64,000 bases of DNA from Flavobacteriales bacterium (GTDB lineage Bacteria > Bacteroidota > Bacteroidia > Flavobacteriales_D > Crocinitomicaceae): positions 1-64,000 of the forward strand of contig CANFRV010000013.1 of assembly GCA_947449575.1 (NCBI GenBank), given 5' to 3'. The notes under the pieces were generated by a model, which was given only the letters and a program-made list of their open reading frames with translations, was not told the DNA's origin and did not search any database. This document shows, piece after piece, positions 3,508 through 57,643 of this stretch (position 1 is the first letter of the stretch; each line of letters starts with the position of its first letter). The translations under genes were made by a program, and so were the position numbers.

Positions 3508-6465
3508 ATGAAAAACAGCCAATCATTTCACAAAGTATTAGTAGCAATTATCGCTATCTTATTTTTCAATCATTCATTAAAAGCTACTACAATTTATACC
3601 GTTGGTGTTTCTGGAGCAAGCTATACAACCATAGCAGCCGCTTATTCAGCCTGCACAGCAGCAACAGATTATGTAATAGAACTTAAAAGTAATTATGCCT
3701 ATAGCACTGAAACATCATCTGGAACTAGCACAATAACACTAGGAACCCTTGCTAACAAAAGTGCAGTTAACACCGTGACCATTAGACCTCAAACAGGCGC
3801 TCTTTTTACATTCACCGGCAATAGTGCATCTATTTTCACATTGAATGGAGCAGATTGGTTAACAATTGATGGTAGAGCAGGTGGAGTTGGTTCAAGCGCC
3901 TTAACAATTATTAATACGAGCTCAGCAAGCGGAGCATATGTTTTTAGTTTTCAAGCAGACGCAACAAATAACACGCTTAAATACCTAACTATGCAAGGGT
4001 CTGGCACTTCAACAGGAGGAGTAATTGGCTTTGGTTCAGGAAGCACAATTGGAAATATAAATAATAAAATCAGCAACAACTCTATTACTAAATCAGCAAG
4101 CGGAACACCATCCTACGGGATATACTCCTATGGCACATCCGCAAGTATTAATAATAGCTCAATAACCGTTTCAAATAATAATTTTTACGATTTAGGACAA
4201 GGTGATTGGTGCGGGATTGTTTCGTATTCAGATAGTTGGACAGTTTCAGGAAATAGCTTTTACCAAAGTGCGAATATATCATTAACCACCACAAATTTAG
4301 ATATGATTTATGTTGGAGCAAATTGCGTAAGTGTTACAATCACTGATAATTACTTTGGAGGAAGATCATCCAATTGCGGGAGTACTGCTTTCACCATTAC
4401 AACAGGAGCATACCAATTGAACGCAATTGATTTTAATGCCATTACAGGAAGCGTAAGTATACTTAGAAATACGATTTCTAACATCACGGCAACTTCCACA
4501 GGGGCTAATTCAGTCGTTGGAATCTATACCTATGGAACTGCCGCATATACCATAGGATCACTTGGAAATGGCAATACAATTGGAAGTACAGCGACAAATG
4601 GCAGTATAACAATAAATGGATCTACTGGAAGCACCGCATTTTATGCCATACAACATTGGGGAACAAATATCTCTAACACAATATCCTACAATACCATTGC
4701 GGGCATTACACAAACACATACCACCGCAGGTACATTCCCCGCCTTTTATGGAATTACAGCAGGACTAAATACACAAGGAATCATCACAAACAATGTTATT
4801 GGATCTAGTTCGGGAGCGATTCAACTAACAGGAACAGGAATTGGAATCAATTATAAAGTAATCTCTTGGGTATCCAATAGTAATTCAACAATCAGCAATA
4901 ATACATTTCAAAACTTCACTATTAGTAATGCATCCGCTACCAATGACAATGCTATCATTTATGTATCAGGCTCCGGAACAAATACAATTTCAACAAATAG
5001 TATTGGAAGTACGACTGCAAATAACATGACTTTCAGTTTAATAGATAACGTAAATGCAATTCACTGTTATAGCAAAGGAAGCCCAGTAATTAGCGGAAAT
5101 ACAATACAACAGTTCAATCAAACAGGAACAGGAAGCACAGCAGGTATAACCGGTATAAATGTTGAACTTTTAAATGGTCTTTCCACTATTTCTTCCAATA
5201 CTATTAAAAATTGCACAACTTCAGGCACCGGAGCAAGTTCATTTTCAGGTATTTATTTGGAAAGCACTTCTTTGGTCGTTGGAAATAGTGTATCAGGAAA
5301 TACTATTTCAACGATTACAGCAACAAGCACTGGAGCAGGAACAATTGTAGGTATTTGGGCGTATGATGGTGGAGGAACCTTCCAGAAAAATAAAATTACA
5401 GGCATTACATTCAATTCAAGCAATACATCTGCTAATCTTTTTGGAATGACAATAGATGCCGCTGATAATTTAAATTTTTACAACAATGTTATTTTACTTA
5501 ATAACGGCTCAGGATCGGCGGTACTGAGAGGTATTTTAAACAGATCAGGTGCTGCTAAAACATATTCATTTTATCACAACACAGTAAAAATATTTGGAAC
5601 CGCAACAAGTGGTTCAAATAACTCAAATGCATTTACGGACATAAATTCAGCAGGAAGTACCATACAAGTTAAGAATAATATTTTTCAAAATACAAGATCA
5701 AACAGCGGTGGCACTGGAACACATATTTCTATTCGATTTGCAAGCAGCGCACCAACAATCAATTCAGATTATAATTATCTTGAAGCAAGCGGAAATGGTG
5801 GAAGTATTGGTGTGTGGAACGGCGCTAATTATGCCACATTTGCATCCTATCGTGCAGCTTCATCGAAGGAAGTAAATTCTAAAAGCACTTCAATTACGAT
5901 TTCATCATCAGGAGAAGTACCTGCGGGAAACACTTCCAATGTGAGCGGCACAGGAACTAACTTATTTGCAATCGTTACTGATGATTTTATTGGTTCAACA
6001 CGATCAACAACACCATGGATGGGAGCCTTTGAGAATGTGATCGTCCTACCTATCGAAATCATAAATTTTTCAGGTTCAAAAAACGGAAATTCGAACGAAT
6101 TAAAGTGGACAACACTTACAGAAATGAATAGTGCCTATTTTACTATTGAGAAGACGGTAGACGGTAAAAATTATGATAAAGTAGGAACCGTGGAAGGTGC
6201 TGGAAATTCGTTTATCAACAATGAATATTCAATGACAGATTTTCACGTTGAAAATTCAATTAATTATTATCGATTAAGTCAAACAGATTTTGAAGGGAAA
6301 TCGAAATATTCTGAATTAATCAGTATTGACAATCGATTAAAAAGCAATTCTAATCGAGAAATCCTATATAAAACAAATATTTTAGGTCAACTAGTAGATG
6401 AATATTATTCAGGATTGGTTGTACTTGTTTTTACAGACGGAAGCTCAATGAAGACCATGCAGTAA
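3508..6465 (+). CDS. Secreted right-handed beta-helix protein with T9SS-type C-terminus
   Basis: The predicted surface or secreted protein has 985 residues. An N-terminal signal peptide (about 1-26, hydrophobic VLVAIIAILFF, cut after LKA) is followed by roughly 780 residues rich in Asn, Ser, Thr and Gly with repeated ISNNTI/NTISG turns, as in parallel beta-helix domains. Near residue 850 an LPIEIINFSG segment begins a linker-type domain with LKWTT and NYYRLSQTDFEGKSKYSE, which in Bacteroidota precedes T9SS sorting domains. The last 40 residues (ILGQLVDEY..GLVVLVFTDG) look like a short sorting signal. Ligand or enzymatic activity cannot be read from the sequence. The neighbours are unrelated, so it probably has its own transcript. 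Confidence 0.75.
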   Translation: MKNSQSFHKVLVAIIAILFFNHSLKATTIYTVGVSGASYTTIAAAYSACTAATDYVIELKSNYAYSTETSSGTSTITLGTLANKSAVNTVTIRPQTGALFTFTGNSASIFTLNGADWLTIDGRAGGVGSSALTIINTSSASGAYVFSFQADATNNTLKYLTMQGSGTSTGGVIGFGSGSTIGNINNKISNNSITKSASGTPSYGIYSYGTSASINNSSITVSNNNFYDLGQGDWCGIVSYSDSWTVSGNSFYQSANISLTTTNLDMIYVGANCVSVTITDNYFGGRSSNCGSTAFTITTGAYQLNAIDFNAITGSVSILRNTISNITATSTGANSVVGIYTYGTAAYTIGSLGNGNTIGSTATNGSITINGSTGSTAFYAIQHWGTNISNTISYNTIAGITQTHTTAGTFPAFYGITAGLNTQGIITNNVIGSSSGAIQLTGTGIGINYKVISWVSNSNSTISNNTFQNFTISNASATNDNAIIYVSGSGTNTISTNSIGSTTANNMTFSLIDNVNAIHCYSKGSPVISGNTIQQFNQTGTGSTAGITGINVELLNGLSTISSNTIKNCTTSGTGASSFSGIYLESTSLVVGNSVSGNTISTITATSTGAGTIVGIWAYDGGGTFQKNKITGITFNSSNTSANLFGMTIDAADNLNFYNNVILLNNGSGSAVLRGILNRSGAAKTYSFYHNTVKIFGTATSGSNNSNAFTDINSAGSTIQVKNNIFQNTRSNSGGTGTHISIRFASSAPTINSDYNYLEASGNGGSIGVWNGANYATFASYRAASSKEVNSKSTSITISSSGEVPAGNTSNVSGTGTNLFAIVTDDFIGSTRSTTPWMGAFENVIVLPIEIINFSGSKNGNSNELKWTTLTEMNSAYFTIEKTVDGKNYDKVGTVEGAGNSFINNEYSMTDFHVENSINYYRLSQTDFEGKSKYSELISIDNRLKSNSNREILYKTNILGQLVDEYYSGLVVLVFTDGSSMKTMQ

Positions 6466-6476
6466 TATGCTACTCA

Positions 6477-7553
6477 TCACCTTTTTGCATGCCGATACAG
6501 AAAATAGGCAACAATTGAAAAAATTACATTTGGAATCCACACAGCAATATATGCAGGAAAACCGACATTCATTGCTGCTACATTTGTCACTTTCATTGTA
6601 AAAATATAGATAAATATTATGCCTAGACCTAGCGCAATATTGATACCAACCCCACCTCTTTTTCTTCGACTAGAAACCGAAACGCCAATAATTGTTAGGA
6701 CATACGTTGCAAAAGGCAAAGACGTTCGTTCATAAAAAATAATTTCATAATCTGGAATATTAGCCGATCCTTTTGCCTTTTCAGCTTTAATAAAATCCCT
6801 TAGCTCTGAATAGGTCATTGTTTCCGCAACATTTTCCCTTTGAGCGATATCCTCTATTTGAAAGTCAAATATGGTATCTTTTTCTTTGCCATTTCGAATA
6901 ATATCATTTGTATCCCCGACAATTCTTTCATAGTAATCATTCAACTTCCACTTATTTGTACCAGGAAGATTAACGGCAGTTCTGGCTTTTAAGAAGTAAA
7001 TTGATTTATTGAAATTATCAGTTTTCTCGAAAATAAAATCATTCACTATATTATCGTCTGAAACATAACTAGAAATACTTAAAGAACCATTTCCAGGGAA
7101 TTCTGCATTATAATTTTCAACATGAACACCTATTCTATAATATTTATTTTCAAAATCGATCATTACTTTATTCGATTTTGGCAAAACATAATGATTCAAG
7201 AGTAATGAAATTAACATTAATACAGTGGCTGCAATCATATAAGGTCTCAACATTCGACCAAAAGTAATTCCACTGTTTAAAATTGGGATAATTTCAGAAT
7301 CCTGCGCCATTTTTGCTGTAAACCAAATGACCGAAACAAAAATAATCAAGGAGGAAAACATGTTTCCATAATGAAGGAGAAACGTGAAATAATATTTTGT
7401 AATTACGTCATAAATAGGAGCTTTCTTTGCGATAAACTCACTTAATCTTTCAGACATATCAAACACCATTGAAAGTAACATTATGATTCCTAACATAAAA
7501 AAGAAAGTCGATAAAAACTTCTTAATAATATATTTATCTATTATTTTCAACAT
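6477..7553 (-). CDS. LptF/LptG family LPS export permease
   Basis: This is an inner-membrane permease of the YjgP/YjgQ (LptF/LptG) family, which with LptB extracts lipopolysaccharide from the inner membrane and passes it to the LptC-A-D bridge. The roughly 358-residue protein has the family layout: three N-terminal membrane helices (about 12-115), a periplasmic beta-rich domain in the middle, and three C-terminal helices (about 275-355) with a charged SSRRKRGG loop. The ATG at 7553 is preferred over a GTG at 7565. It starts 19 bases after the tgt stop, so the two are probably cotranscribed. Whether it is LptF or LptG cannot be decided here. Confidence 0.85.
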   Translation of the reverse strand: MLKIIDKYIIKKFLSTFFFMLGIIMLLSMVFDMSERLSEFIAKKAPIYDVITKYYFTFLLHYGNMFSSLIIFVSVIWFTAKMAQDSEIIPILNSGITFGRMLRPYMIAATVLMLISLLLNHYVLPKSNKVMIDFENKYYRIGVHVENYNAEFPGNGSLSISSYVSDDNIVNDFIFEKTDNFNKSIYFLKARTAVNLPGTNKWKLNDYYERIVGDTNDIIRNGKEKDTIFDFQIEDIAQRENVAETMTYSELRDFIKAEKAKGSANIPDYEIIFYERTSLPFATYVLTIIGVSVSSRRKRGGVGINIALGLGIIFIYIFTMKVTNVAAMNVGFPAYIAVWIPNVIFSIVAYFLYRHAKR

Positions 7554-7572
7554 GTTTTTTTGCACTCAAAAA

Positions 7573-8703
7573 TTACAATCTAGTCCCTAATTTAACAACC
7601 ATTTTTGTTTTCCATTCAGTAAAGGAACCATCTAATATTCTAACTCGCGCTTGTTTGACCAATTCGAGATAAAAAGCTAAATTATGTATTGTAGCAATTT
7701 GCATTCCTAAATATTCACTTGATTTAATTAAATGTCTTAAATATGCTTTGGAATAAAATTTATCAACATAAGAAGTACCATTTGGATCTAACATTGAAAA
7801 ATCATTTGCCCATTTTAAATTCTTAATATTTATTATTCCTTCGGAAGTAAATAACATCCCATGACGTGCATTTCTAGTCGGCATGACACAATCAAACATA
7901 TCAATTCCAAGTGCAATACATTCTAATAAATTAATAGGAGTACCTATTCCCATTAGATATCGAGCTTTATCTTTAGGTAAAATATCGCAAACTAGATCCG
8001 TCATTGCATACAATTCTTCGTCTGGCTCACCCACAGATAAACCACCAATTGCATTTCCAATCGCTCCAAAAGAAGATATCATTTCAGCAGATTGAGTTCT
8101 CAAGTCTTTATAGGTACTACCTTGCACAATCGGAAAAAGAGCTTGATTATGACCGTATTTAGGTTCCGTAACATCCATTTGATCGAAGCATCTTTTCAAC
8201 CATCTATGGGTCATATGCATAGACCGTTTTGCATAATTATACTCACAGGGATAAGGAGTACATTCATCAAAAGCCATAATGATATCAGCGCCAATTGAAC
8301 GTTGAATATCAATTGATTTTTCAGGAGTAAAAAAATGAATACTACCATCTATATGTGAACGAAACTTCACGCCATCTTCTGTAATTTTATTAGAACTCGA
8401 TAAAGAATACACTTGATATCCACCACTATCCGTTAAAATTGGACCTTCCCAACCGTTAAATTTATGTAAGCCACCAGCACCTTCAACCACATCCATTCCT
8501 GGTCGCATGTATAAATGATAGGTATTTCCTAAAATAATTTGTGCCTTAATATCCTCCTTTAGTTCGTGTTGATGAACTCCCTTCACTGTACCGGCAGTTC
8601 CCACAGGCATAAATATCGGAGTTTCAATCGTTCCGTGATCCGTATGTATGATTCCAGCACGCGCTTTTGACTTGGAATCGGTATGTAATAAATCGAAGTG
8701 CAT
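7573..8703 (-). CDS. tgt: tRNA-guanine transglycosylase lacking the zinc cysteines
   Basis: The enzyme exchanges guanine-34 for a queuine precursor in GUN-anticodon tRNAs. The 376-residue protein shows the TIM-barrel signatures: DSGGYQVYSL, MAFDECTPYP, GLSVGEPDEE and the nucleophile segment FDCVMPTRNARHG. The usual CxCxxC...H zinc site is altered. By alignment from memory to KxYSxAYLRHL, the three cysteines are replaced by G309, S311 and D314, while H340 remains. I recall the same change in Flavobacterium Tgt, so it is probably lineage-wide. It is followed closely by the permease gene. Confidence 0.92.
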   Translation of the reverse strand: MHFDLLHTDSKSKARAGIIHTDHGTIETPIFMPVGTAGTVKGVHQHELKEDIKAQIILGNTYHLYMRPGMDVVEGAGGLHKFNGWEGPILTDSGGYQVYSLSSSNKITEDGVKFRSHIDGSIHFFTPEKSIDIQRSIGADIIMAFDECTPYPCEYNYAKRSMHMTHRWLKRCFDQMDVTEPKYGHNQALFPIVQGSTYKDLRTQSAEMISSFGAIGNAIGGLSVGEPDEELYAMTDLVCDILPKDKARYLMGIGTPINLLECIALGIDMFDCVMPTRNARHGMLFTSEGIINIKNLKWANDFSMLDPNGTSYVDKFYSKAYLRHLIKSSEYLGMQIATIHNLAFYLELVKQARVRILDGSFTEWKTKMVVKLGTRL

Positions 8704-8727
8704 AAAATTGTTGAAAAATAATCGTCA

Positions 8728-8735
8728 CAAAGATA
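8728..8735 (-). promoter_or_regulatory. -7 promoter box of tgt
   Basis: On the minus strand this reads TATCTTTG, a perfect TAnnTTTG, 25 bases upstream of the tgt ATG. No -33 TTG is seen at normal spacing. Confidence 0.5.
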
Positions 8736-8783
8736 GTTGTATTTACGAAAGCACCCCATATTTGCACAAAGCTTTATACATAG

Positions 8784-9920
8784 ATGCAATTTTTTCCGAT
8801 TTTCGAATTCACATTACCCACGATATTATTTTGTTTATTTTCCTTAATGGCATTCATTCAGATAATATACACACTATTTATCCATGGCAAGCTTTCCTTT
8901 TTTACAGGTCGAAAAAATACAAGAGCATCTAATTATCCGGACGTAAGTGTACTAATTTCCGCACGTAATGAATCGGATAACCTCTATGAAAACCTGCCAT
9001 TAATACTAGAGCAAGATTATCCAAATTTTGAAGTGATTGTAATTAACCACCAATCAGTAGACGATTCTTCCCATATCTTAAATGCATATGCACATCAATA
9101 TAAAAATTTAAGGGTTATTGAAGTAGAAAGAAGCGCCCATTTAAAACCAGGTAAAAAGTTACCATTAACTCTAGGAATAAAAGGGTCTAAATATGAACAC
9201 TTATTTTTCACAGACGCTGATTGTCGACCTGCAAGTAATCAATGGTTGAAAAGTATGGCTCAATATTTCACAGATGAAAAACAAATTATTTTGGGTTACG
9301 CTCCACATGTTAAGAAGCAAGGATTTCTCAATCGTTTAATTCGATTTGATACGACTTGGGTTGCTATCAATTATTTATCAATGGCATTAGCAAAAATGCC
9401 ATATATGGGTGTTGGTAGAAATTTAGCCTACACCAAAACTCTATTTAATTCCGTTAATGGCTATAAATCTCATTATTCTATAACTTCTGGAGATGATGAT
9501 CTATTTATACAAGAGACCATCACCAGAAACAACTTTTCTATTAACATTGACCCAGTATCTTTCTGTTATTCGGAAGGAAGTGATAATTGGGAAAATTGGT
9601 ACATGCAAAAATCCAGACACTTCACTACAGCTGGCAGATATAATGTTTTCAAAAAAGCGATGTTAGGAATTTATCCATTAACCATGTTAATCTTATTGAT
9701 TTCCTTTGTTATTTTGTTACTTGATGAGAGTTTCCGTTTGATAACTCTATCAGGGTTTGGATTTGTAGTACTACTAAAATGGTGGATTCAGGCAAGGTGT
9801 TTTAAGAAATTGAAAGAACCAAGCTTTATCGCTTTACTTCCATTATATGACATAGGGTATGCTATTTTCCTTCCCATTTTGTATTACACAACAGACAAAA
9901 AAGAAATTAGAAAATGGTAG
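8784..9920 (+). CDS. Membrane-anchored family 2 glycosyltransferase
   Basis: This is a GT-A fold glycosyltransferase (GT2 group) with an N-terminal membrane helix (about 12-36) and two C-terminal helices (about 290-340), so catalysis is on the cytoplasmic membrane face. Visible motifs are ISARNESDNL near residue 55, a TDADCRP metal-binding DxD-type segment near 145, and a QKSRHF segment standing where QxxRW occurs in processive enzymes. The sugar and acceptor are unknown. The stop overlaps the next start (ATG at 9914), so the downstream sigma factor is translationally coupled. Confidence 0.8.
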   Translation: MQFFPIFEFTLPTILFCLFSLMAFIQIIYTLFIHGKLSFFTGRKNTRASNYPDVSVLISARNESDNLYENLPLILEQDYPNFEVIVINHQSVDDSSHILNAYAHQYKNLRVIEVERSAHLKPGKKLPLTLGIKGSKYEHLFFTDADCRPASNQWLKSMAQYFTDEKQIILGYAPHVKKQGFLNRLIRFDTTWVAINYLSMALAKMPYMGVGRNLAYTKTLFNSVNGYKSHYSITSGDDDLFIQETITRNNFSINIDPVSFCYSEGSDNWENWYMQKSRHFTTAGRYNVFKKAMLGIYPLTMLILLISFVILLLDESFRLITLSGFGFVVLLKWWIQARCFKKLKEPSFIALLPLYDIGYAIFLPILYYTTDKKEIRKW

Positions 9921-46268: not shown

Positions 46269-47030
46269 ATGAAAAAAATTATTGCCTTTTTACTTTTTTC
46301 TAATTGCTTTATTACCAATTCATTTGGACAAAGAAACGTGAATGACTCTATTATAGGCACTCCATGGGTTTCTGTGAATTACGGGGGTAATTGGACGAGT
46401 GGAGATATGGCTCTAAAGTACGATTTCCTTCATCATCTAGGAATTATGGCCGGCTATAAAACTACTAAAAATTGGTTTTTGGGTATTGATGCTAATTTTA
46501 TGTTCAGCGAGAGAGTTCACACCAACGGAATGCTCAATAACTTGCTAGATTCTCAAGGAAATGTCACCGATATGAATGGAGATATTGGAAAGATTGTAAT
46601 TTCTGCGCGAGGACTAAATGCAAATCTAGCCGTGGGAAAAGTTTTCCCTATTTTGAGTCCGAATGAAAATTCAGGAATTTTTATTCACTGCGGACTAGGA
46701 TTTCTGGCTCATAAATATAGAATTGCCACGCAAGATCAAGTTATACCGCAATTAGAATTAGATTATAAAAAAGGATATGATAGATTAACATTAGGTCCTA
46801 ATTTTCATCAATTTGTTGGCTACGCATTTATGGCCGACCATGGATTAATTAACTTCTTTGGTGGATTTTATGCACAACAAGGATTCACTCATAACTTTCG
46901 CACGCAATTTTTTGACCAACCTGGAGTTCCCGTATCAAACAAAACAATGTTGGATTTCCAAGTTGGATTTAAAATAGGTTGGTTCATTCCTATTTATAAA
47001 AGAAAACCAAAAGATTATTATTTAGATTGA
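46269..47030 (+). CDS. Outer-membrane beta-barrel protein
   Basis: The 253-residue protein has a cleavable signal peptide (about 1-20, ending NSFGQ) and alternating polar/aromatic strands (WVSVNYGGNWTSGDM, FLGIDANFMFSER, GIFIHCGLGFLAHKY, MLDFQVGFKIGWFIPIY) typical of a small eight- to ten-strand barrel. The function is unknown. The stop overlaps the waaA ATG by one base (TGATG), so it may relate to LPS export or envelope assembly, by context only. Confidence 0.75.
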   Translation: MKKIIAFLLFSNCFITNSFGQRNVNDSIIGTPWVSVNYGGNWTSGDMALKYDFLHHLGIMAGYKTTKNWFLGIDANFMFSERVHTNGMLNNLLDSQGNVTDMNGDIGKIVISARGLNANLAVGKVFPILSPNENSGIFIHCGLGFLAHKYRIATQDQVIPQLELDYKKGYDRLTLGPNFHQFVGYAFMADHGLINFFGGFYAQQGFTHNFRTQFFDQPGVPVSNKTMLDFQVGFKIGWFIPIYKRKPKDYYLD

Positions 47031-49758: not shown

Positions 49759-52758
49759 TCAATTGATTCCCGTCAATTTTAATCCTTTATTTACAATATT
49801 CATTTTCAATGTGAATCGAATATTCTTTGAATAATTACTAGTAAATAAAGCTCCCATATTATCACTTTGATATAGAGGGAAATACATCCCGAAAACTTTT
49901 CCTAGTCTCATTCCTAACCCTGTCACAAAAATACCATTTGTAGTACTTCCATTTGAATAGGTTCCAGCATCTGCAAAAACGCCTAAGACATTTGGTTTGA
50001 TTGGCAATTGTAAATAAAAGTTACCTGTTGTCATCCAAAAAGAGGTGGAGGCTGCATTACTAGTTGTTTTAAATCCTCCCATATCTGCATTTCTTTGGTT
50101 GGCAAAAAAACCACTGGTCGCTGATCGAGCAAAGTAGTAATCTTCATAAAATATATCTTGATTCCCACTAACACCGCTCATCGAAATTAAATATCTTCCC
50201 GTATTATCAGCATCTTTGTAGCGGTAATTCGACCCAAAATAAGCTCTCAATTCAACCCAACGTTTGATTTTATTTTTCAAATATCTAAAGCGATAATTTC
50301 CTTCCATTGAAACCCTACCTACTTCATTTGAATTACCCGTGTTTTTCATGTAATCACTTCTCAAAATCAAATCTGCTTGATGATCCGCTTTTACATAATG
50401 AGTAGCAAACTTAACGAACCCTCCCATTTCATTTGTAGAATTACTGCCGGATTTTATAGTACTTGAAATTGTTTGAATTAAGAATGAATGAGAAATTGGT
50501 GAAGCTGACTTTCTATTTCCTAAATTCATAAAAATATAAGGCGAAAAATTAGCATAATATTGATTTTGTTCTGTGAAACCATTTCCCATTTTTTCATCAT
50601 TTTTAAATGATTTTAGCGATACTCCTAAACGAATTAACTTAAATGATTTTCGAGGCAACATAGAATAACTAAATTCTCCAATTCCTGATATGCTTTTTCT
50701 CCCAGTTGAATACATAGGGGCCATTAAATATTGGAAGTTTTTAAAGGGAATTCCATAATTATGAGCCACTATTCCCACCATAAATTTATCATACGCGTTT
50801 CCAGAAACCATAGGTGTCCAAAAGTTGTTTGACTTACCTCGTTCATGATCGCCAAATAGAAATTCAAATTTTACAGGCTCTATTTTATTAAATAATAAAC
50901 TTTTTTTCCACTGGTTATTCGTTCTATCCATCTCTGGAATATTATTATTCGCATCGATACGAACCTCATCTAAATTTAGTGAATTTAAATGAACAAGTTG
51001 TTTTTTATCTCCCGGTTCAACCCAACTTTTTTCTATTAATTTGCCGTCAGCATATCCATCTATTTCTACTGGACCATTTACTTGCCCAACGTTTCTTAAA
51101 GTAACGTCAAATCCACTTGCTGTTTTTTTCACTTTGGATAATCTGTAATCAATGTGATGCGTCGTTTGAATTAAATCATCAAAGAGCCAAGATAAATTTT
51201 TACCTGATGTTTGTTCAAGGATACTGCGCATATCTTCCGGCTGAGGATGCTTAAACTTCCACTTTTCAAAATAAGCATGCATACATTTACCAAATAATTC
51301 TTCTCCTAAATAGGCGCGTAGATAAAAGAAAACAAGTCCCGTTTTTTGATACATGATTATACCATAGTTGGTCGGGGTGAAATCTGGCGATGGTGTTTCA
51401 ATTGGCTGATCTGCACCTATCATTGCCATCATTCGATACGAAATATCACCAGAATCATGATGATCAAGACCGTTTAAATGAAATCTACCATTTAATACCA
51501 TATCAGAAAAACGAGTGTTGTCGGGATATTTTGTTTGTACATATCGAACTTCATTCAACGTATTCATACCTTCATCCATCCAACCATGCACTCTTTCATT
51601 AGATCCCAAAATACCATAAAACCAGTTATGGCCAACTTCATGAACAATGACAACTTCTAACTCTTCTTTAGAACTCGTATTTCCAATAACAGTCACATTT
51701 GGATACTCCATTCCTCCACCAGCACTGATCGTTCCATCAACAGCGGTAACTTGATTATATGGATAATCCCCATTCCACAGTGAATAATAGTAGGTTCCAT
51801 CGTTTATATATTCTATGGCATCTTTCCAAAATCCTGCATTTTTAGGCGTAAACATTGCCCAAGTTGTTACTCTTCTTTTTGATTGTGGTAACTCAACTTC
51901 TCCTTTTAAAACTTCAAAGCGTTTATCTGCAAACCAACCAAAATCATGCACATCTCTTTGAGTATATCGTATTGTTTTCATTTTAGAAGATGATTCTGGA
52001 AATGAAAATGAAGTTACTTGCTTCGTTGCACTTCCTAGTTCACCACTTTTAATTTTTAGTGCAGATTTAGCGGCTAAATCATTCAAGAAATCAATTTCAG
52101 ATGTGGTTTGTAAATCTCCAGTAGCACCAACCACATAATTTTCAGGTAAAGTTATTGATACATCAAAAGATCCATATTCAGAATAAAATTCACCCTGATT
52201 CAAATAAGGAATTGGATTCCATCCATTTTTATCATACACTGCTGGTTTTGGATACCATTGCGTAATTTGATATGATTGCCCAACATGTCCCAATCGAGAA
52301 ATTTCACCGGATGGAATTTGCACAGTAAATGGTGTTGAAATAGTAATTCTACCCCCTGAAAATAAAGGAGTAGCAAGAAAAATTTTACAAATATCTAGGT
52401 TGACAGGATCAAATTCCCAAATCACTTTTTCTCCATTTACTCTAAAATCCAAATTATCAATCGATCCTTTAAGACTATCAGCTCCATATTTTAAAACTGT
52501 TTTATTTTCTTGCCATTGCTGCTTACCTAAAGCGGAATGCTCATTTTTATAGGCGTTTGGCCATACATGTATGTAAATAAAATCGAGTATTGCTGGAGAA
52601 TTATTAACATATTCAAATTCTTCAAATGCAGTAATCTGATGTTTTGCATCATCTAAAGTCACATTTATTTTATAATTCACTTCTTGTTGCCAATAGTTTT
52701 GCGAAAATAGTGACGATGAAAGTAGAAGCGATAAGGTAACTAAAGTAATTTTATTCAT
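49759..52758 (-). CDS. M1 metallopeptidase fused to a C-terminal outer-membrane barrel
   Basis: The 999-residue secreted protein has a signal peptide (about 1-19, SLFSQ) and an M1 aminopeptidase-like region with the substrate motif GGMEY (348-352, for GAMEN). Zinc site H373, E374, H377 is in VHEVGHNWFYG, with E396 eighteen residues on (HGWMDEG). A beta-sandwich domain follows (about 545-640), ending near NNIPEMDRTNNQW. From about 640 to the end the sequence alternates polar and aromatic residues in many amphipathic strands (VSLKSF, ELRAYFGSNYRY, GLGMRLGKVFGMYFPLYQ), which reads as an outer-membrane beta barrel. Surface tethering of the peptidase is inferred. Confidence 0.85.
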   Translation of the reverse strand: MNKITLVTLSLLLSSSLFSQNYWQQEVNYKINVTLDDAKHQITAFEEFEYVNNSPAILDFIYIHVWPNAYKNEHSALGKQQWQENKTVLKYGADSLKGSIDNLDFRVNGEKVIWEFDPVNLDICKIFLATPLFSGGRITISTPFTVQIPSGEISRLGHVGQSYQITQWYPKPAVYDKNGWNPIPYLNQGEFYSEYGSFDVSITLPENYVVGATGDLQTTSEIDFLNDLAAKSALKIKSGELGSATKQVTSFSFPESSSKMKTIRYTQRDVHDFGWFADKRFEVLKGEVELPQSKRRVTTWAMFTPKNAGFWKDAIEYINDGTYYYSLWNGDYPYNQVTAVDGTISAGGGMEYPNVTVIGNTSSKEELEVVIVHEVGHNWFYGILGSNERVHGWMDEGMNTLNEVRYVQTKYPDNTRFSDMVLNGRFHLNGLDHHDSGDISYRMMAMIGADQPIETPSPDFTPTNYGIIMYQKTGLVFFYLRAYLGEELFGKCMHAYFEKWKFKHPQPEDMRSILEQTSGKNLSWLFDDLIQTTHHIDYRLSKVKKTASGFDVTLRNVGQVNGPVEIDGYADGKLIEKSWVEPGDKKQLVHLNSLNLDEVRIDANNNIPEMDRTNNQWKKSLLFNKIEPVKFEFLFGDHERGKSNNFWTPMVSGNAYDKFMVGIVAHNYGIPFKNFQYLMAPMYSTGRKSISGIGEFSYSMLPRKSFKLIRLGVSLKSFKNDEKMGNGFTEQNQYYANFSPYIFMNLGNRKSASPISHSFLIQTISSTIKSGSNSTNEMGGFVKFATHYVKADHQADLILRSDYMKNTGNSNEVGRVSMEGNYRFRYLKNKIKRWVELRAYFGSNYRYKDADNTGRYLISMSGVSGNQDIFYEDYYFARSATSGFFANQRNADMGGFKTTSNAASTSFWMTTGNFYLQLPIKPNVLGVFADAGTYSNGSTTNGIFVTGLGMRLGKVFGMYFPLYQSDNMGALFTSNYSKNIRFTLKMNIVNKGLKLTGIN

Positions 52759-52937: not shown

Positions 52938-54350
52938 TTACTTTTCAATAACTACTCTTTGATGAAAAAGAATCGAATCATTTTCTATTTGTAAAAAATA
53001 AATTCCAGAGGATAAACTCTTAACATCTATTTGAGAAGCGATCTTATTAGTCAACATTACGATTCCTTTCAAATCTACTAGTCGAATCGTTGAATTTTCA
53101 TATTTTGAATCAAAATCAATAAAAATTTCATCTTTAGCTGGATTAGGATAAATATTGAATGTTGAAACGTTAAAGTCTGAGATCCCAAGGTATCCATCCA
53201 CACCATCACAATTTTCATCAATACCATTGCCATTCACATCTGCAGCATTTTCATTAATCATCGGATTTGTATCATCACAATCAGAAGAATTTGCTACATA
53301 CCCTATTAATGCCGAACATACTGTCATAGTATTTGATGCATTACCAAATCCGTCAGAGTCAAGGTCTTCATATACTACAACGGATGGAATTGTAATCAAT
53401 GGATCCGAATCATCACAATCTGAATTATTTGAAACGTAACCTGAAGGAACAGAACATGCAACTTGATAAATAGTAGAATCACCAAAACCATCAACATCAG
53501 CATCTAGGTAATAAGTTGTATTTGCTATAGTTACCAATGGATCTGAATCATCACAATCTGTATTGCTGGCCACGTATCCAGTTGGAGCTGTACACCCAAT
53601 TGATTGAGAAAACACATCTCCAAAAGTATCCCCATCTTGATCTTGAAACCATACAGTGTTTGGATTTATTAAAGCATTGGCATCATCACAATCTTGATTA
53701 TCAAGAACGTATCCAACAGGTAAACTACATGCAGATATTGTCGCTGAAGGGTCTCCATAAGAATCTCCATCTGAATCTGCATAATAAAGCTGAGGTGTAA
53801 CAGCATTAATTGTTCCTGTTACAGAAACATTGTCATTTCGCCATGTAGTTGTTGCATCAGTAATAGAAGTCACATATAATCGGAAAGTTACTGCTTCAAT
53901 ATTTTGATGACTAGCAGGTAAAGTGATTGTTGTCGGAGAAAGAGCAGTACTTGAGGTTCCTGTACCTAAATCAGTTGAGAACCCATCTACACTAGATCGA
54001 AGATACCAAACGGGAATAGATGTAACAGCACTTGCTCTGTGCGAAAAAGTAAAATCATTCAGCGATAAATTAAAACATGGATCTGCAGTAATAGTAAATT
54101 CATTGTATTCCAATAAATCGATACTACTTGTCGTGTTCCAACCTTGTTCGTTAAACACATTAGCCGTAGAATTGCATAATGTGCCAGTAGATGAATAATC
54201 GCTAAACGAAGCATTGGTAGGCTGCGTTGTTACTGATATATTTGTCTTAGGGCATGCCGCTACTTCTGTAAATTCATAGATTGCCAAGGTTTGACCATTA
54301 CTAATAAATGCAAAGAATGCAACAAAAAATGTTATTGATAATATCTTCAT
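52938..54350 (-). CDS. Secreted protein with four MopE-like repeats and T9SS tail
   Basis: The 470-residue protein has signal peptide 1-19, a beta-sandwich N-terminal domain (about 20-180), and four tandem repeats of about 42 residues. Each repeat has an acidic DxDxDG-type loop and a DCDD(A/S/T)(N/D) block (YYADSDGDSYGD, FQDQDGDTFGD, YLDADVDGFGD, YEDLDSDGFGN), resembling the putative metal-binding MopE/thrombospondin-3 type repeat. A half repeat NGNGIDENCDG follows, then a T9SS type A sorting domain (YPNPAKDEIFIDF to SGIYFLQIEND). Calcium binding and surface location are expected from family. A full promoter precedes it. Confidence 0.85.
   Translation of the reverse strand: MKILSITFFVAFFAFISNGQTLAIYEFTEVAACPKTNISVTTQPTNASFSDYSSTGTLCNSTANVFNEQGWNTTSSIDLLEYNEFTITADPCFNLSLNDFTFSHRASAVTSIPVWYLRSSVDGFSTDLGTGTSSTALSPTTITLPASHQNIEAVTFRLYVTSITDATTTWRNDNVSVTGTINAVTPQLYYADSDGDSYGDPSATISACSLPVGYVLDNQDCDDANALINPNTVWFQDQDGDTFGDVFSQSIGCTAPTGYVASNTDCDDSDPLVTIANTTYYLDADVDGFGDSTIYQVACSVPSGYVSNNSDCDDSDPLITIPSVVVYEDLDSDGFGNASNTMTVCSALIGYVANSSDCDDTNPMINENAADVNGNGIDENCDGVDGYLGISDFNVSTFNIYPNPAKDEIFIDFDSKYENSTIRLVDLKGIVMLTNKIASQIDVKSLSSGIYFLQIENDSILFHQRVVIEK
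53200..53789 (-). repeat. Four tandem in-gene repeats encoding acidic metal-binding motifs
   Basis: The coding repeats of about 126 bases each encode D-x-D-x-D-G loops and DCDD blocks joined by GYV segments. They are diverged at the DNA level. Confidence 0.7.
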
Positions 54351-54432: not shown

Positions 54433-55953
54433 TCAATGATTAGCATCAATAACTTCAGTTTCTAATGGGAATATTTTCACTGATTTCTCTTGATGCTGAA
54501 GTACATCTAAGAAATCTTCTAATTGAGAAATAGACAGTTTTTTTCCGACCACTTTTTTGTCTTTATCCAACACAAAAACGGTCGGAGTTGATATCACATC
54601 AAAATGCTCCGAGTAATTCAAGGATTCTATAGACGTATATTTAGGAACAAATTGACGATAGTCTTCTGTGGCAGCTTTAAATAATGAGTTAGTAATACCA
54701 ACTGTAATAAACGTCAAATGATTGTCCTTCACGAAATCCTTCCATAGCTTAAAATCTTCCCCTACTGCTTTTGCTACAGAAAATATTTCAACATTTCTAG
54801 CCTTCAATTTTTTCTCATACAATTCTTGCAATTGAGGAGTTGAGGTTTTACAATGCCCGCAGGTTGGTTCCCAAAAATAAAGAACGGTGTAATCTGCTTT
54901 TATATGGTAATAATCAACCCACTTTTGATCTGAAGTATCCCGAAGAGTTACATTTGGTGGCACCATCCCGAACAGTAATTTCTTTCGAATGGTAATCGTT
55001 TCGCACAATTCTTTTAATTTATCTTCTGGCACCCAATAAGCAGGAGACTTTCCTGATTTATTACTAGAACAGTAGTATTTATCTGCCATCATCACAAAAA
55101 CATTTTCCATGCCCATAATCTTACTTTGCTCAAACGATGAAGTAATCCAAGAAACGCAGGTTTGAAAAGCTTTCGATTTTGGGTCTAATTTGTCACACAG
55201 TAAAAATGAATACTTAATTACTGAATCCCAACATTGAACCATCATGGTGTTTCCAAAATAGGTCTCTAAACGAGAATGAAAAGAGGGAATACTAACCATA
55301 CGATCATCACTAAAATCAACATTGTCAAAATAATGATCTCGGTAATAATGGTAGGCAAACAGAGTATCTATTTGCTTTCCATGCACATCTTTAGGAGCTT
55401 CAGGAACCTCAATATCCATGCCTATCTTAATGATTTTAGAAACAAATAGATTTGGATTTTCTACAATGACTTTTTTCTGATAGGCGATAATATCTTTAGA
55501 AATCAATCCGTTTTTTTGCTGGAAAAGCGTATAATTTTCACTGTCTCGTTTTAATTTAGAAAGGGTGTCATTATTAGCAGACAACTCTTCTCTTTTTACA
55601 GCAAGTAAATTCAAGTATTTATAAAAAACCTTATTTTCTTCCGATTTAATTATTTTCATACTTTTCACGAAATCTGGTCCTTCCGCTTCCATTTGAACTT
55701 CCTCCTTATTATAAATAAATTCAAAATATTTCTTCCCTGGAAGAAGTACAACAAGAATGCCATCCGTCTGTTTGGAACCATCAAATTCTACGAATTGGTT
55801 TTTTACATCGGCCGTATCTGCATAATACAAACCTTTACCTTCATATCGCAATAAGAAAACAGTTGTGTCTTTTTGACCACTAATTTTAAACTTTAATTTT
55901 TGCCCAAATGAAAAACAGGATAGCAAAAGGAATACTACTAAAGTAATTTTCAT
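54433..55953 (-). CDS. Periplasmic thioredoxin-fold protein (TlpA-like), paralogue B
   Basis: The 506-residue exported protein has signal peptide 1-17 (CFSFGQ), a beta-rich N-terminal domain (about 18-85), a long helical middle part (DUF5106-like, with AYHYYRDHYFDNVDFSDDR), and a C-terminal TlpA/AhpC-TSA thioredoxin domain (about 335-490) with the redox motif C365-G-H-C368. It is a clear tandem duplicate of the next gene upstream, alignable over the whole length, and the CxxC is at the same residue number. The likely role is a membrane-side thiol-disulfide reductase; substrates are unknown. Confidence 0.82.
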   Translation of the reverse strand: MKITLVVFLLLSCFSFGQKLKFKISGQKDTTVFLLRYEGKGLYYADTADVKNQFVEFDGSKQTDGILVVLLPGKKYFEFIYNKEEVQMEAEGPDFVKSMKIIKSEENKVFYKYLNLLAVKREELSANNDTLSKLKRDSENYTLFQQKNGLISKDIIAYQKKVIVENPNLFVSKIIKIGMDIEVPEAPKDVHGKQIDTLFAYHYYRDHYFDNVDFSDDRMVSIPSFHSRLETYFGNTMMVQCWDSVIKYSFLLCDKLDPKSKAFQTCVSWITSSFEQSKIMGMENVFVMMADKYYCSSNKSGKSPAYWVPEDKLKELCETITIRKKLLFGMVPPNVTLRDTSDQKWVDYYHIKADYTVLYFWEPTCGHCKTSTPQLQELYEKKLKARNVEIFSVAKAVGEDFKLWKDFVKDNHLTFITVGITNSLFKAATEDYRQFVPKYTSIESLNYSEHFDVISTPTVFVLDKDKKVVGKKLSISQLEDFLDVLQHQEKSVKIFPLETEVIDANH

Positions 55954-56024: not shown

Positions 56025-57551
56025 TTAATTTCCATGCATTTGCTCATCTTCCTCTGGATCAGGAGGAAACAGTTTCACAGCATTTTTCTGATTTTGAAGT
56101 TTGTCTAATAAATCTTCTAATTGTGAAATTGATAATTGTTTTGCAATGATTTTCTTGTCTTTATCCAACACAAAAACTCGGGGAGTGGAAAAGATATCGA
56201 AGGTAGTTTGATAGTTCAAAGATTCAATATTTGTATACTTTGGAACAAATTGTCTAGCATCTTCCATTGCTGCTTTAAACAAGGATTCAGTTACTCCAAC
56301 ATTGATAAAGGTTAATTTATTTTCAATAATAAATTTCTTCCATTTTCCAAAATCTTCACCAATCGCTTTGCTTATCGCATAGACTTCAATGTTTCTATCT
56401 TTGAATTTCTTTAGATACAACTCCTGTAATTTAGGTGTTGTTTTCTTACAATGACCACATTCTGGATCCCAAAAATACAAAATAGTGTAATCAGATTTTA
56501 GACCATACACATCAATCCATTTAACATCAGATGTATCCCGTAAAGAAATATTTGGCGGTTTAGCTCCCATCACAAGGTTTTTCTGAACGTTCACTTTGTC
56601 ACACAATGCTTTCAATTTTTCTTCAGGCACCCAATGCGCTGGAGATTTCCCTTGGGGGTTTGTTGTGCAGTAATATCGATCCCCCATCATTACAAAAACT
56701 TTATCCATGCCCATGATATTACTTTTCTCATACGTGGATGTAATCCAAGAAACACAATATTCAAAAGTTTTCGTTTTTGGATCAATTCTATCACATAAAA
56801 TAAATGCGTATTTGATAATCGAATCCCAGTGCTGAACCATCATCGTCTTGCCAAAATACGTTTCCAATTTTGTGTGAAACAAAGGCGTATTAACAACTCT
56901 CCCATCGTTTAAATCAATATTATCAAAATAATGATCTCTATAATAATGATACGCAAAAAGAGAATCTATCTGTTTTCCATTCGCATCTTTCGGAGCATCT
57001 GGTATCGTAATCTCCATTCCCATTTTCACCACTTTAGCAACAAATTTAGAGGCGTTTACAGCGATTAAATTTGTTTGATAAGCAAGTACTTCTTTTGAAA
57101 TAGCATCCATTTTTACTGTTAATTCTTTAAAAGCAGGATCCTCTTTTTTCAACTTAGAACGATCATCAGAAATTTTATTTGCTTCCGCTCTTTTTACATT
57201 TAAGAATTTCAAATAATCAATAAAAACTTTATTTTCTTCCGATTTTTTCACCTTCATCGCATTCACAAAATCGGGACCTGTCGTTTCTAATTGTACGTCC
57301 TCATTGTTATAAATGAATTCAAAATATTTCTGTTGAGGAAGTAAAAGCGCAAAAATACCAGGATTCTGACGTGCTGCATCAAATTCAACTAATCCTCCTT
57401 TTATTTCAGCAGTATCCGCATAAAACAACCCTTTACCATAATATTTCACTAAAAAAACAGTAGTATCTTTTTGACCAATTACTTTAAATTTCATTTTTTG
57501 ACCGTAAGAAAAGGTCGATAACAAAAGTGTCAGTAAGAATAAAATTTTCAT
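56025..57551 (-). CDS. Periplasmic thioredoxin-fold protein (TlpA-like), paralogue A
   Basis: The 508-residue exported protein has the same layout as the following gene: signal peptide (MKILFLLTLLLSTFSYGQ), N-terminal KFKVIGQKDTTVFLVKYYGKG domain, helical middle with AYHYYRDHYFDNIDLNDGR, and thioredoxin domain with C365-G-H-C368 in WDPECGHCKKT. ATG 57551 is chosen because it begins the signal peptide; an upstream frame to 57587 would bury it. It lies 92 bases after the FtsX-type permease gene, in one direction with it. Confidence 0.83.
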   Translation of the reverse strand: MKILFLLTLLLSTFSYGQKMKFKVIGQKDTTVFLVKYYGKGLFYADTAEIKGGLVEFDAARQNPGIFALLLPQQKYFEFIYNNEDVQLETTGPDFVNAMKVKKSEENKVFIDYLKFLNVKRAEANKISDDRSKLKKEDPAFKELTVKMDAISKEVLAYQTNLIAVNASKFVAKVVKMGMEITIPDAPKDANGKQIDSLFAYHYYRDHYFDNIDLNDGRVVNTPLFHTKLETYFGKTMMVQHWDSIIKYAFILCDRIDPKTKTFEYCVSWITSTYEKSNIMGMDKVFVMMGDRYYCTTNPQGKSPAHWVPEEKLKALCDKVNVQKNLVMGAKPPNISLRDTSDVKWIDVYGLKSDYTILYFWDPECGHCKKTTPKLQELYLKKFKDRNIEVYAISKAIGEDFGKWKKFIIENKLTFINVGVTESLFKAAMEDARQFVPKYTNIESLNYQTTFDIFSTPRVFVLDKDKKIIAKQLSISQLEDLLDKLQNQKNAVKLFPPDPEEDEQMHGN

Positions 57552-57643
57552 ATTTAATTTGAATTTGTAATTTATAATTGTCCTCATTCAACATAGACGT
57601 ATCAAAAATAAGAAAGAAATAGATTTTAACATTTATTTAACTA

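Follow-up and report, generated by a model that had tools for sequence, protein, structure and literature searches.

A Crocinitomicaceae M1 aminopeptidase fused to a predicted Omp85-like outer-membrane barrel

The window analysed here is a stretch of 64,000 nucleotides from a Flavobacteriales bacterium of the Crocinitomicaceae (assembly GCA_947449575.1, contig CANFRV010000013.1, positions 1 to 64,000). Its reverse strand carries, at positions 49759-52758, an open reading frame of 999 amino acids (aa) with an ATG start and uninterrupted by stops, in which a signal peptide is followed by an M1 metallopeptidase with an intact zinc site, a small beta domain and a C-terminal barrel. This protein is probably an M1 aminopeptidase tethered to the outer membrane and facing the periplasm. 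The barrel is predicted to have 16 strands. Profile comparisons link it to the Omp85 superfamily, and it lacks the loop-6 arginine, the strand-12 glutamate and a match to the Omp85 family PF01103; we therefore call it Omp85-like, that is, apparently related to the superfamily and outside all of its described subfamilies. New here are an M1 domain as partner on such a barrel and the loss of the zinc site in a related group. What we infer is the function, namely the periplasmic side, the enzyme activity, its substrate, and that the barrel serves to anchor the protein and is not a functioning translocase.

The enzyme half and the predicted barrel

The initial annotation of this gene had described the zinc site (H373, E374, H377, E396) and the GGMEY motif as intact, and both are indeed found at these positions. 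Together with Y470, the probable catalytic tyrosine of the M1 family, these residues and GGMEY 348-352 show no variation among 67 aligned proteins, namely the 999-residue protein and 66 of its 70 complete close relatives (L010, L035, L061 and L084 were omitted). Close relatives are here the best 80 of 173 loci from a scan of genome contigs, with 48-98% identity; 79 of them carry the zinc site, the sole miss being a 5'-cut fragment without that part. Pfam recognises Peptidase_M1 (PF01433) at residues 330-527 (E 9.9e-19, 68.2 bits for a cut-off of 27.7), and three M1 models of NCBIfam match the protein, each below its own cut-off, next to a pentapeptide-repeat match (E 0.04-0.11) that is implausible. 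The features that mark membership of the M1 family have thus all been found: the HExxH-18-E pattern, a GxMEN-like motif with the tyrosine, the family profile and the fold. The whole AlphaFold2 model was compared with the PDB by VIA-align, which re-compares the best 1000 chains of Foldseek, and the first 20 entries are M1 enzymes (Z 28.5-30.6). The two-domain M1 metallopeptidase of Deinococcus radiodurans (6a8z, 6koy, 6kp1; Z 28.5-29.0) has the same catalytic domains and zinc site. However, this enzyme and other M1 aminopeptidases are soluble and have no membrane barrel, unlike the 999-residue protein.

The residues from about 640 to 999 had been noted as differing from the usual C-terminal helices of M1 enzymes, and the predicted structure agrees. 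For the full protein (67 sequences), AlphaFold2 places 16 consecutive strands within residues 645-984, with a mean predicted local distance difference test score (pLDDT) of 87.9 and a predicted template-modelling score of 0.83. Residues 538-999 modelled alone (56-row alignment) give 16 barrel strands again, at a pLDDT of 85.8. Since 16 strands are obtained in the AlphaFold2 runs, the model is that of a barrel and not of a soluble beta sandwich or of the usual M1 helical domain, the two folds that the initial annotation had named as contrary outcomes. The alternation of hydrophobic and polar residues, from which the barrel had been proposed, does not carry the argument: it amounts to 2.30 in the 16 barrel strands and to 2.52 in 15 soluble strands elsewhere in the chain. 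This measure fails to separate the two kinds of strands and was dropped as a barrel test; the assignment rests on fold and homology.

Sequence searches are silent on this half. With residues 535-999, Pfam gives no match at E<=1, NCBIfam returns only the pentapeptide-repeat model (E 0.04-0.05), and a PDB sequence search with the barrel gives no solved relative at E<=10. Because the barrel escapes Pfam and NCBIfam, annotation will probably label the genes encoding such fusions simply as aminopeptidases. By fold, all 50 entries listed by VIA-align for the C-terminal model belong to the beta-barrel assembly machinery (BAM), the sorting and assembly machinery (SAM), TamA or FhaC (Z 15.2-18.5). The top match is BamA (8xnb, Z 18.5, root-mean-square deviation 4.4 over 288 aligned residues), and the BAM complex of F. 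johnsoniae (9n2d) scores Z 16.9. This list reflects fold similarity and is not proof of descent, because VIA-align re-examines the best 1000 chains of Foldseek. Foldseek's own list begins with CdiB and also holds LptD and FimD, these two at TM-scores (template-modelling scores) of 0.17-0.30.

No Por_Secre_tail or other tail model of the type IX secretion system (T9SS) in Pfam or NCBIfam matches the 999-residue protein, in line with the absence of such a tail in the initial annotation; the neighbouring gene at 52938-54350 has one. The C-terminus falls shortly after a predicted barrel strand.

Relation to Omp85 and side of the membrane

The link to Omp85 passes through distant relatives. Four M1-barrel proteins from outside the class (L106, L107, L217, L219) read VRGY or LRGY where the 999-residue protein reads MGGF; (V/L/I)RG(F/Y) is the loop-6 motif of Omp85. 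In hhalign, whose probabilities apply here to single comparisons and not to a database search, a widened family of window-type barrels (57 sequences) aligns with these four RGY-bearing M1-barrels at a probability of 98.1 over 335 columns. These four align with 28 Omp85 barrels of related genomes at 96.7, and the direct comparison of the widened family with the same 28 barrels gives 94.1. The controls, DUF5686 (20 sequences) and PorP/SprF (19 of 20 sequences), stay at 13.3 or lower. A narrower alignment, A2, reaches 85.7 with a mixed Omp85 set.

Local features point the same way. The loop after strand 11 (849-907) has 59 residues, as expected of Omp85 loop 6. D930 and G932 of the FADAG motif are at least 90% conserved in the 67-protein alignment, and the strand-13 aspartate is kept in 49 of 51 M1-barrel proteins. 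This wider set comprises the window's protein, 12 of the 70 complete close relatives and 38 proteins from other genomes, with nine second locus copies, five M1-only or cut-frame loci and seven barrel-less M1 loci omitted. G894 and F896 of MGGF are invariant in the 67 proteins, although the placement of gaps around this motif is uncertain. As for the missing POTRA domains discussed below, POTRA-less Omp85 forms do exist and the barrel is the defining feature of the superfamily, according to the survey of Heinz and Lithgow (PMC4104836).

Because the number of strands is even, both ends of the barrel should lie on the same side of the membrane, and in Omp85 barrels the N-terminus is periplasmic (PMC11116518). 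The long loop after strand 11 fits this topology, and in the AlphaFold2 model the loops after odd strands are longer (mean 13.4) than the turns after even strands (5.6). The initial annotation had instead proposed a protease placed on the cell surface. The corresponding mechanism would be a self-display similar to type Vd secretion, the barrel moving its own M1 domain outside, as first proposed for the patatin-Omp85 protein PlpD; the protein shares with PlpD the order of enzyme and barrel, and early reports had the PlpD enzyme delivered to the cell surface (PMC4104836). Upon re-examination, however, the PlpD enzyme was shown to be in the periplasm (PMC11116518). Moreover, a 16-stranded barrel seems unlikely to let through an M1 domain of about 500 residues in its folded state. 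Owing to the even strand number, the loop after strand 11 and the PlpD precedent, surface display looks unlikely, if the barrel is Omp85-like, and the enzyme half is most likely periplasmic. Of the initial proposal, a peptidase that carries its own membrane anchor or is displayed by it, the covalent fusion of M1 with a predicted barrel and without a T9SS tail has thus been retained; the surface placement has not, and the barrel is more specific, being Omp85-like, than had been claimed.

In the favoured mechanism, the protein would be exported by Sec and its C-terminal 16-stranded Omp85-like barrel would insert into the outer membrane. The enzyme and the small beta domain would then occupy the place of the BamA POTRA domains or of the PlpD patatin domain, just below the membrane, where the M1 domain would probably trim the N-terminal residues of peptides or of unfolded protein ends.

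Stand-alone barrels of 414-438 aa with LRGY, IRGY or LRGF were also encountered (L222, L224, L225, L227-L229, L232-L234, L236, L237). They came from a search with the L106 barrel, which matched in 58 of 296 genomes, some only within the first 90 residues. Six of these RGY-type barrels were scanned and gave no Pfam family at E<=1. The longest frame of L221, L226 and L243 resembles an acetate kinase.

Known systems, rival readings and the clade without the zinc site

PlpD of Pseudomonas aeruginosa is the closest parallel in architecture, with an N-terminal enzyme and a C-terminal 16-stranded Omp85-type barrel; the likeness would extend to the periplasmic placement of the enzyme. The M1-barrel protein differs in having M1 in place of patatin and a small all-beta domain in place of POTRA, in lacking the loop-6 arginine, and in a barrel that PF01103 does not recognise. 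TamL ('Lipo') and 'noNterm' Omp85 proteins belong to the same barrel family, but TamL is a lipoprotein that carries POTRA domains, and the noNterm proteins have no enzyme domain. Four TamL-like rows, taken for TamL by size and sequence, also lack the loop-6 arginine (GPGSF/GPGSY). The hydrolase of the 'Metallo' subfamily is of PF00149, the calcineurin-like phosphoesterases, another family than M1. In the accessible part of the paper by Heinz and Lithgow (2014; PMC4104836), ten Omp85 subfamilies are defined, of which patatin and 'Metallo' (PF00149) bear enzymes, and M1 is not mentioned among them; 'Metallo' likewise has a POTRA-less hydrolase before the Omp85 barrel, was considered by these authors for periplasmic quality control, and is conserved only at the genus level. 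Membership in the BAM complex of F. johnsoniae, for which new subunits have been described, was also considered and set aside: the word 'peptidase' is absent from the available part of PMC12611786, and none of the terms looked for occurs in PMC12578637. No M1-Omp85 fusion was found in the literature searched, which did not extend to subscription papers and preprints.

Several observations weigh against a periplasm-facing enzyme on an Omp85-like barrel. PF01103 is unmatched at E<=1 in the 999-residue protein and in its C-terminal parts, likewise in nine of nine distant relatives scanned, and also in six stand-alone barrels and three M1-barrel relatives or fragments. Window-type rows lack the RG(F/Y) arginine of loop 6, and of the 51 M1-barrel rows just two, L106 and L107, have the strand-12 glutamate. 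No POTRA is present, the domain before the barrel being made of strands without helices in both AlphaFold2 models. By hhalign, A2 gives 0.8 with BamA alone and 0.7 with TamL-like proteins alone, no better than the controls, and the widened family reaches only 61.0 and 66.8, respectively; A2 also gives no signal with a small Omp85 group (0.4) or with the stand-alone RGY barrels (7.0). Regarding the side of the membrane, the mean length after odd strands drops to 6.9, for 5.6 after even ones, when the 59-residue loop is set aside, so that loop lengths are a weak test of topology and leave the side unsettled. The predicted side is argued from the even count of strands and from where the 59-residue loop lies.

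The same lack of a PF01103 match, of the arginine and of any PDB chain found by sequence, the presence of LptD among the first Foldseek matches and the non-significant A2 comparisons with BamA or TamL alone could also be read as convergence, the barrel being a plain anchor or porin unrelated to Omp85. This seems quite improbable in view of the loop 6 position, the FxDxG region, the profile links through the RGY-bearing M1-barrels with their low controls, and a VIA-align list made entirely of the Omp85 superfamily.

Another alternative, in which the barrel is an active insertase or translocase and M1 a substrate-binding module that replaces POTRA, with a catalysis that is secondary and hence losable, has to be considered in the light of a clade without the zinc site. 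This clade is in our view the most interesting new point, read as it is from alignments. The zinc site is kept in 31 of the 51 M1-barrel proteins; the other 20, which belong to families f5 (2) and f6 (18), presumably Weeksellaceae and Flavobacteriaceae, respectively, all lack HExxH and GGMEY. In all 20, H373 is replaced by K or G and E374 by T, A or I; H377 is replaced in 19, and at the place of E396 there is D in 18 proteins and N in the two others. A loss of the catalytic tyrosine was also envisaged and rejected: Y470 has an aligned tyrosine in 18 of the 20, which the profile alignment pairs one place on, and the loss claimed here is restricted to HExxH and GGMEY. The tree built from the barrel region places all 20 in a single group, with a Shimodaira-Hasegawa approximate likelihood-ratio (SH-aLRT) support of 100 and one state change; the method is a quick one, and it flags L087 as a very long branch and the joining of long branches close to the root. 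The N-terminal halves of the zinc-less proteins align with active M1 in hhalign (probability 100 over 472 columns), which indicates a loss of the zinc site and not a replacement of the domain; of three zinc-less proteins scanned, Pfam picks up M1 in two, weakly and below cut-off. Since the fusion is kept in this group, the scaffold must have a role without this catalysis.

An insertase function would agree with the M1 fold and barrel being kept in the clade without HExxH, with a tyrosine whose retention would fit a preserved peptide site, and with the genes found beside the zinc-less gene in ten loci: LOG-family (8/10) and 2-oxo acid dehydrogenase E1-type (9/10), UvrA-type genes being also present (6/10), all named from one representative each. 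However, the loop-6 arginine and the strand-12 glutamate are absent from active and zinc-less window-type rows alike, which is why the barrel is read as an anchor rather than as a translocase, and no BAM-type or TAM-type (translocation and assembly module) partner appears among the few neighbours scanned with Pfam. This function is therefore doubtful. A related and similarly tentative idea is that of a further Omp85 subfamily, in which the M1 fold would replace POTRA, its peptide-binding groove presenting clients to the barrel whether or not the zinc site is there, and in which the zinc-less form would be an undescribed chromosomal component of outer-membrane biogenesis.

Whichever holds, Omp85 barrels are at the core of outer-membrane protein assembly and few N-terminal partners have been described for them; an M1 peptidase is one here. 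A fusion kept without HExxH raises a testable question, namely which role other than peptide cleavage an enzyme fold may have at the outer membrane. The anchored, periplasm-facing M1 enzyme would also be another case, after PlpD, bearing on whether enzymes on Omp85 barrels face inwards.

Features, distribution and genomic neighbourhood

Features of the 999-residue protein and their positions in the window
Feature	Residues	Position	Strand	Basis
Signal peptide, without lipobox cysteine	1-19	52702..52758	(-)	sequence and close relatives
M1 N-terminal and catalytic domains	20-535	51154..52701	(-)	Pfam PF01433; VIA-align
GGMEY substrate-binding motif	348-352	51703..51717	(-)	invariant, 67 sequences
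HEVGH zinc-binding/catalytic motif	373-377	51628..51642	(-)	invariant, 67 sequences
E396, third zinc ligand		51571..51573	(-)	invariant; 18 residues separate H377 from E396
Y470, probable catalytic tyrosine		51349..51351	(-)	invariant, 67 sequences
Small all-beta domain linking enzyme and barrel	538-618	50905..51147	(-)	strands in both AlphaFold2 models
Predicted 16-stranded Omp85-like beta barrel	645-984	49807..50826	(-)	AlphaFold2, PDB structure comparison, hhalign
Long loop, strands 11-12, at Omp85 loop 6 position	849-907	50038..50214	(-)	DSSP of model
MGGF at place of Omp85 (V/L)RG(F/Y), arginine missing	893-896	50071..50082	(-)	alignment
FADAG on strand 13, matching Omp85 FxDxG/FxEAG region	928-932	49963..49977	(-)	alignment

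Among the 70 complete close relatives, 68 have K/R plus a hydrophobic stretch and two show a lipobox-like pattern. The small beta domain is also detected in M1 proteins without a barrel (620-820 aa), by weak profile matches over about the first 95 columns; it is missing in L093-L096, where the profile columns before 83 are unmatched.

The initial annotation had suggested a search for the same two-domain order across Bacteroidota. Of the best 80 loci, 70 are complete at both ends, and their lengths of 988-1009 aa make enzyme-then-barrel the rule among close relatives. Named isolates among the loci include Fluviicola and Lishizhenia (Crocinitomicaceae), most loci coming from metagenome bins. Of 100 genomes from the window's own family, 77 match the C-terminal profile, a few matches being clipped at contig ends. 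In a phylum sample of 198 genomes, it matches beyond column 100 in 34 of the 49 genomes of the same class (the window's own included) and in none of the 149 others. Six bins (L006, L008, L011, L042, L059, L071) are labelled Chryseobacterium gleum, Chitinophaga pinensis or Kuenenia; their genes are closest to the Crocinitomicaceae type, and these labels are probably wrong.

A split version, with enzyme and barrel as adjoining genes, was not found near the M1-only genes of three loci (L260-L262). In L263, at 4512-9033 (+), an M1-barrel gene (frame of 967 aa) comes after an M1-only gene (frame of 524 aa), no more than about 50 bases further on, which suggests a duplication plus loss of the barrel. 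In L105 (genome G037), the M1 frame has 383 aa and the C-terminal match is divided between two other frames, of which one contains a stop; this M1-barrel gene seems broken or misassembled.

In the window, the gene directly upstream on the same strand (52938-54350) encodes a T9SS cargo protein of type A whose MopE-type repeats putatively bind metal. Beyond it lie two thioredoxin-like proteins at 54433-55953 and 56025-57587 (-), with DUF4369 and DUF5106 matches, and then an FtsX-like permease (Pfam). The thioredoxin-like pair is apparently a tandem duplication, and relatives of it were found in 29 loci. Of the 69 loci whose sequence reaches far enough, 34 have a similar cargo gene directly upstream; in three of these the match spans no more than 116 residues, hardly more than the tail. 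In the other 35, judged by eye, this position is held by a thioredoxin-like gene in about 11 and by another T9SS-type gene in about 7. Such a neighbourhood points to a putative envelope role and names no partner. Elsewhere in the window, a possible small outer-membrane barrel is encoded at 46269-47030 (+), with an OMP_b-brl score of 20.4 bits, below the cut-off of 28.7; the gene beside it resembles a 3-deoxy-D-manno-oct-2-ulosonic acid (KDO) transferase.

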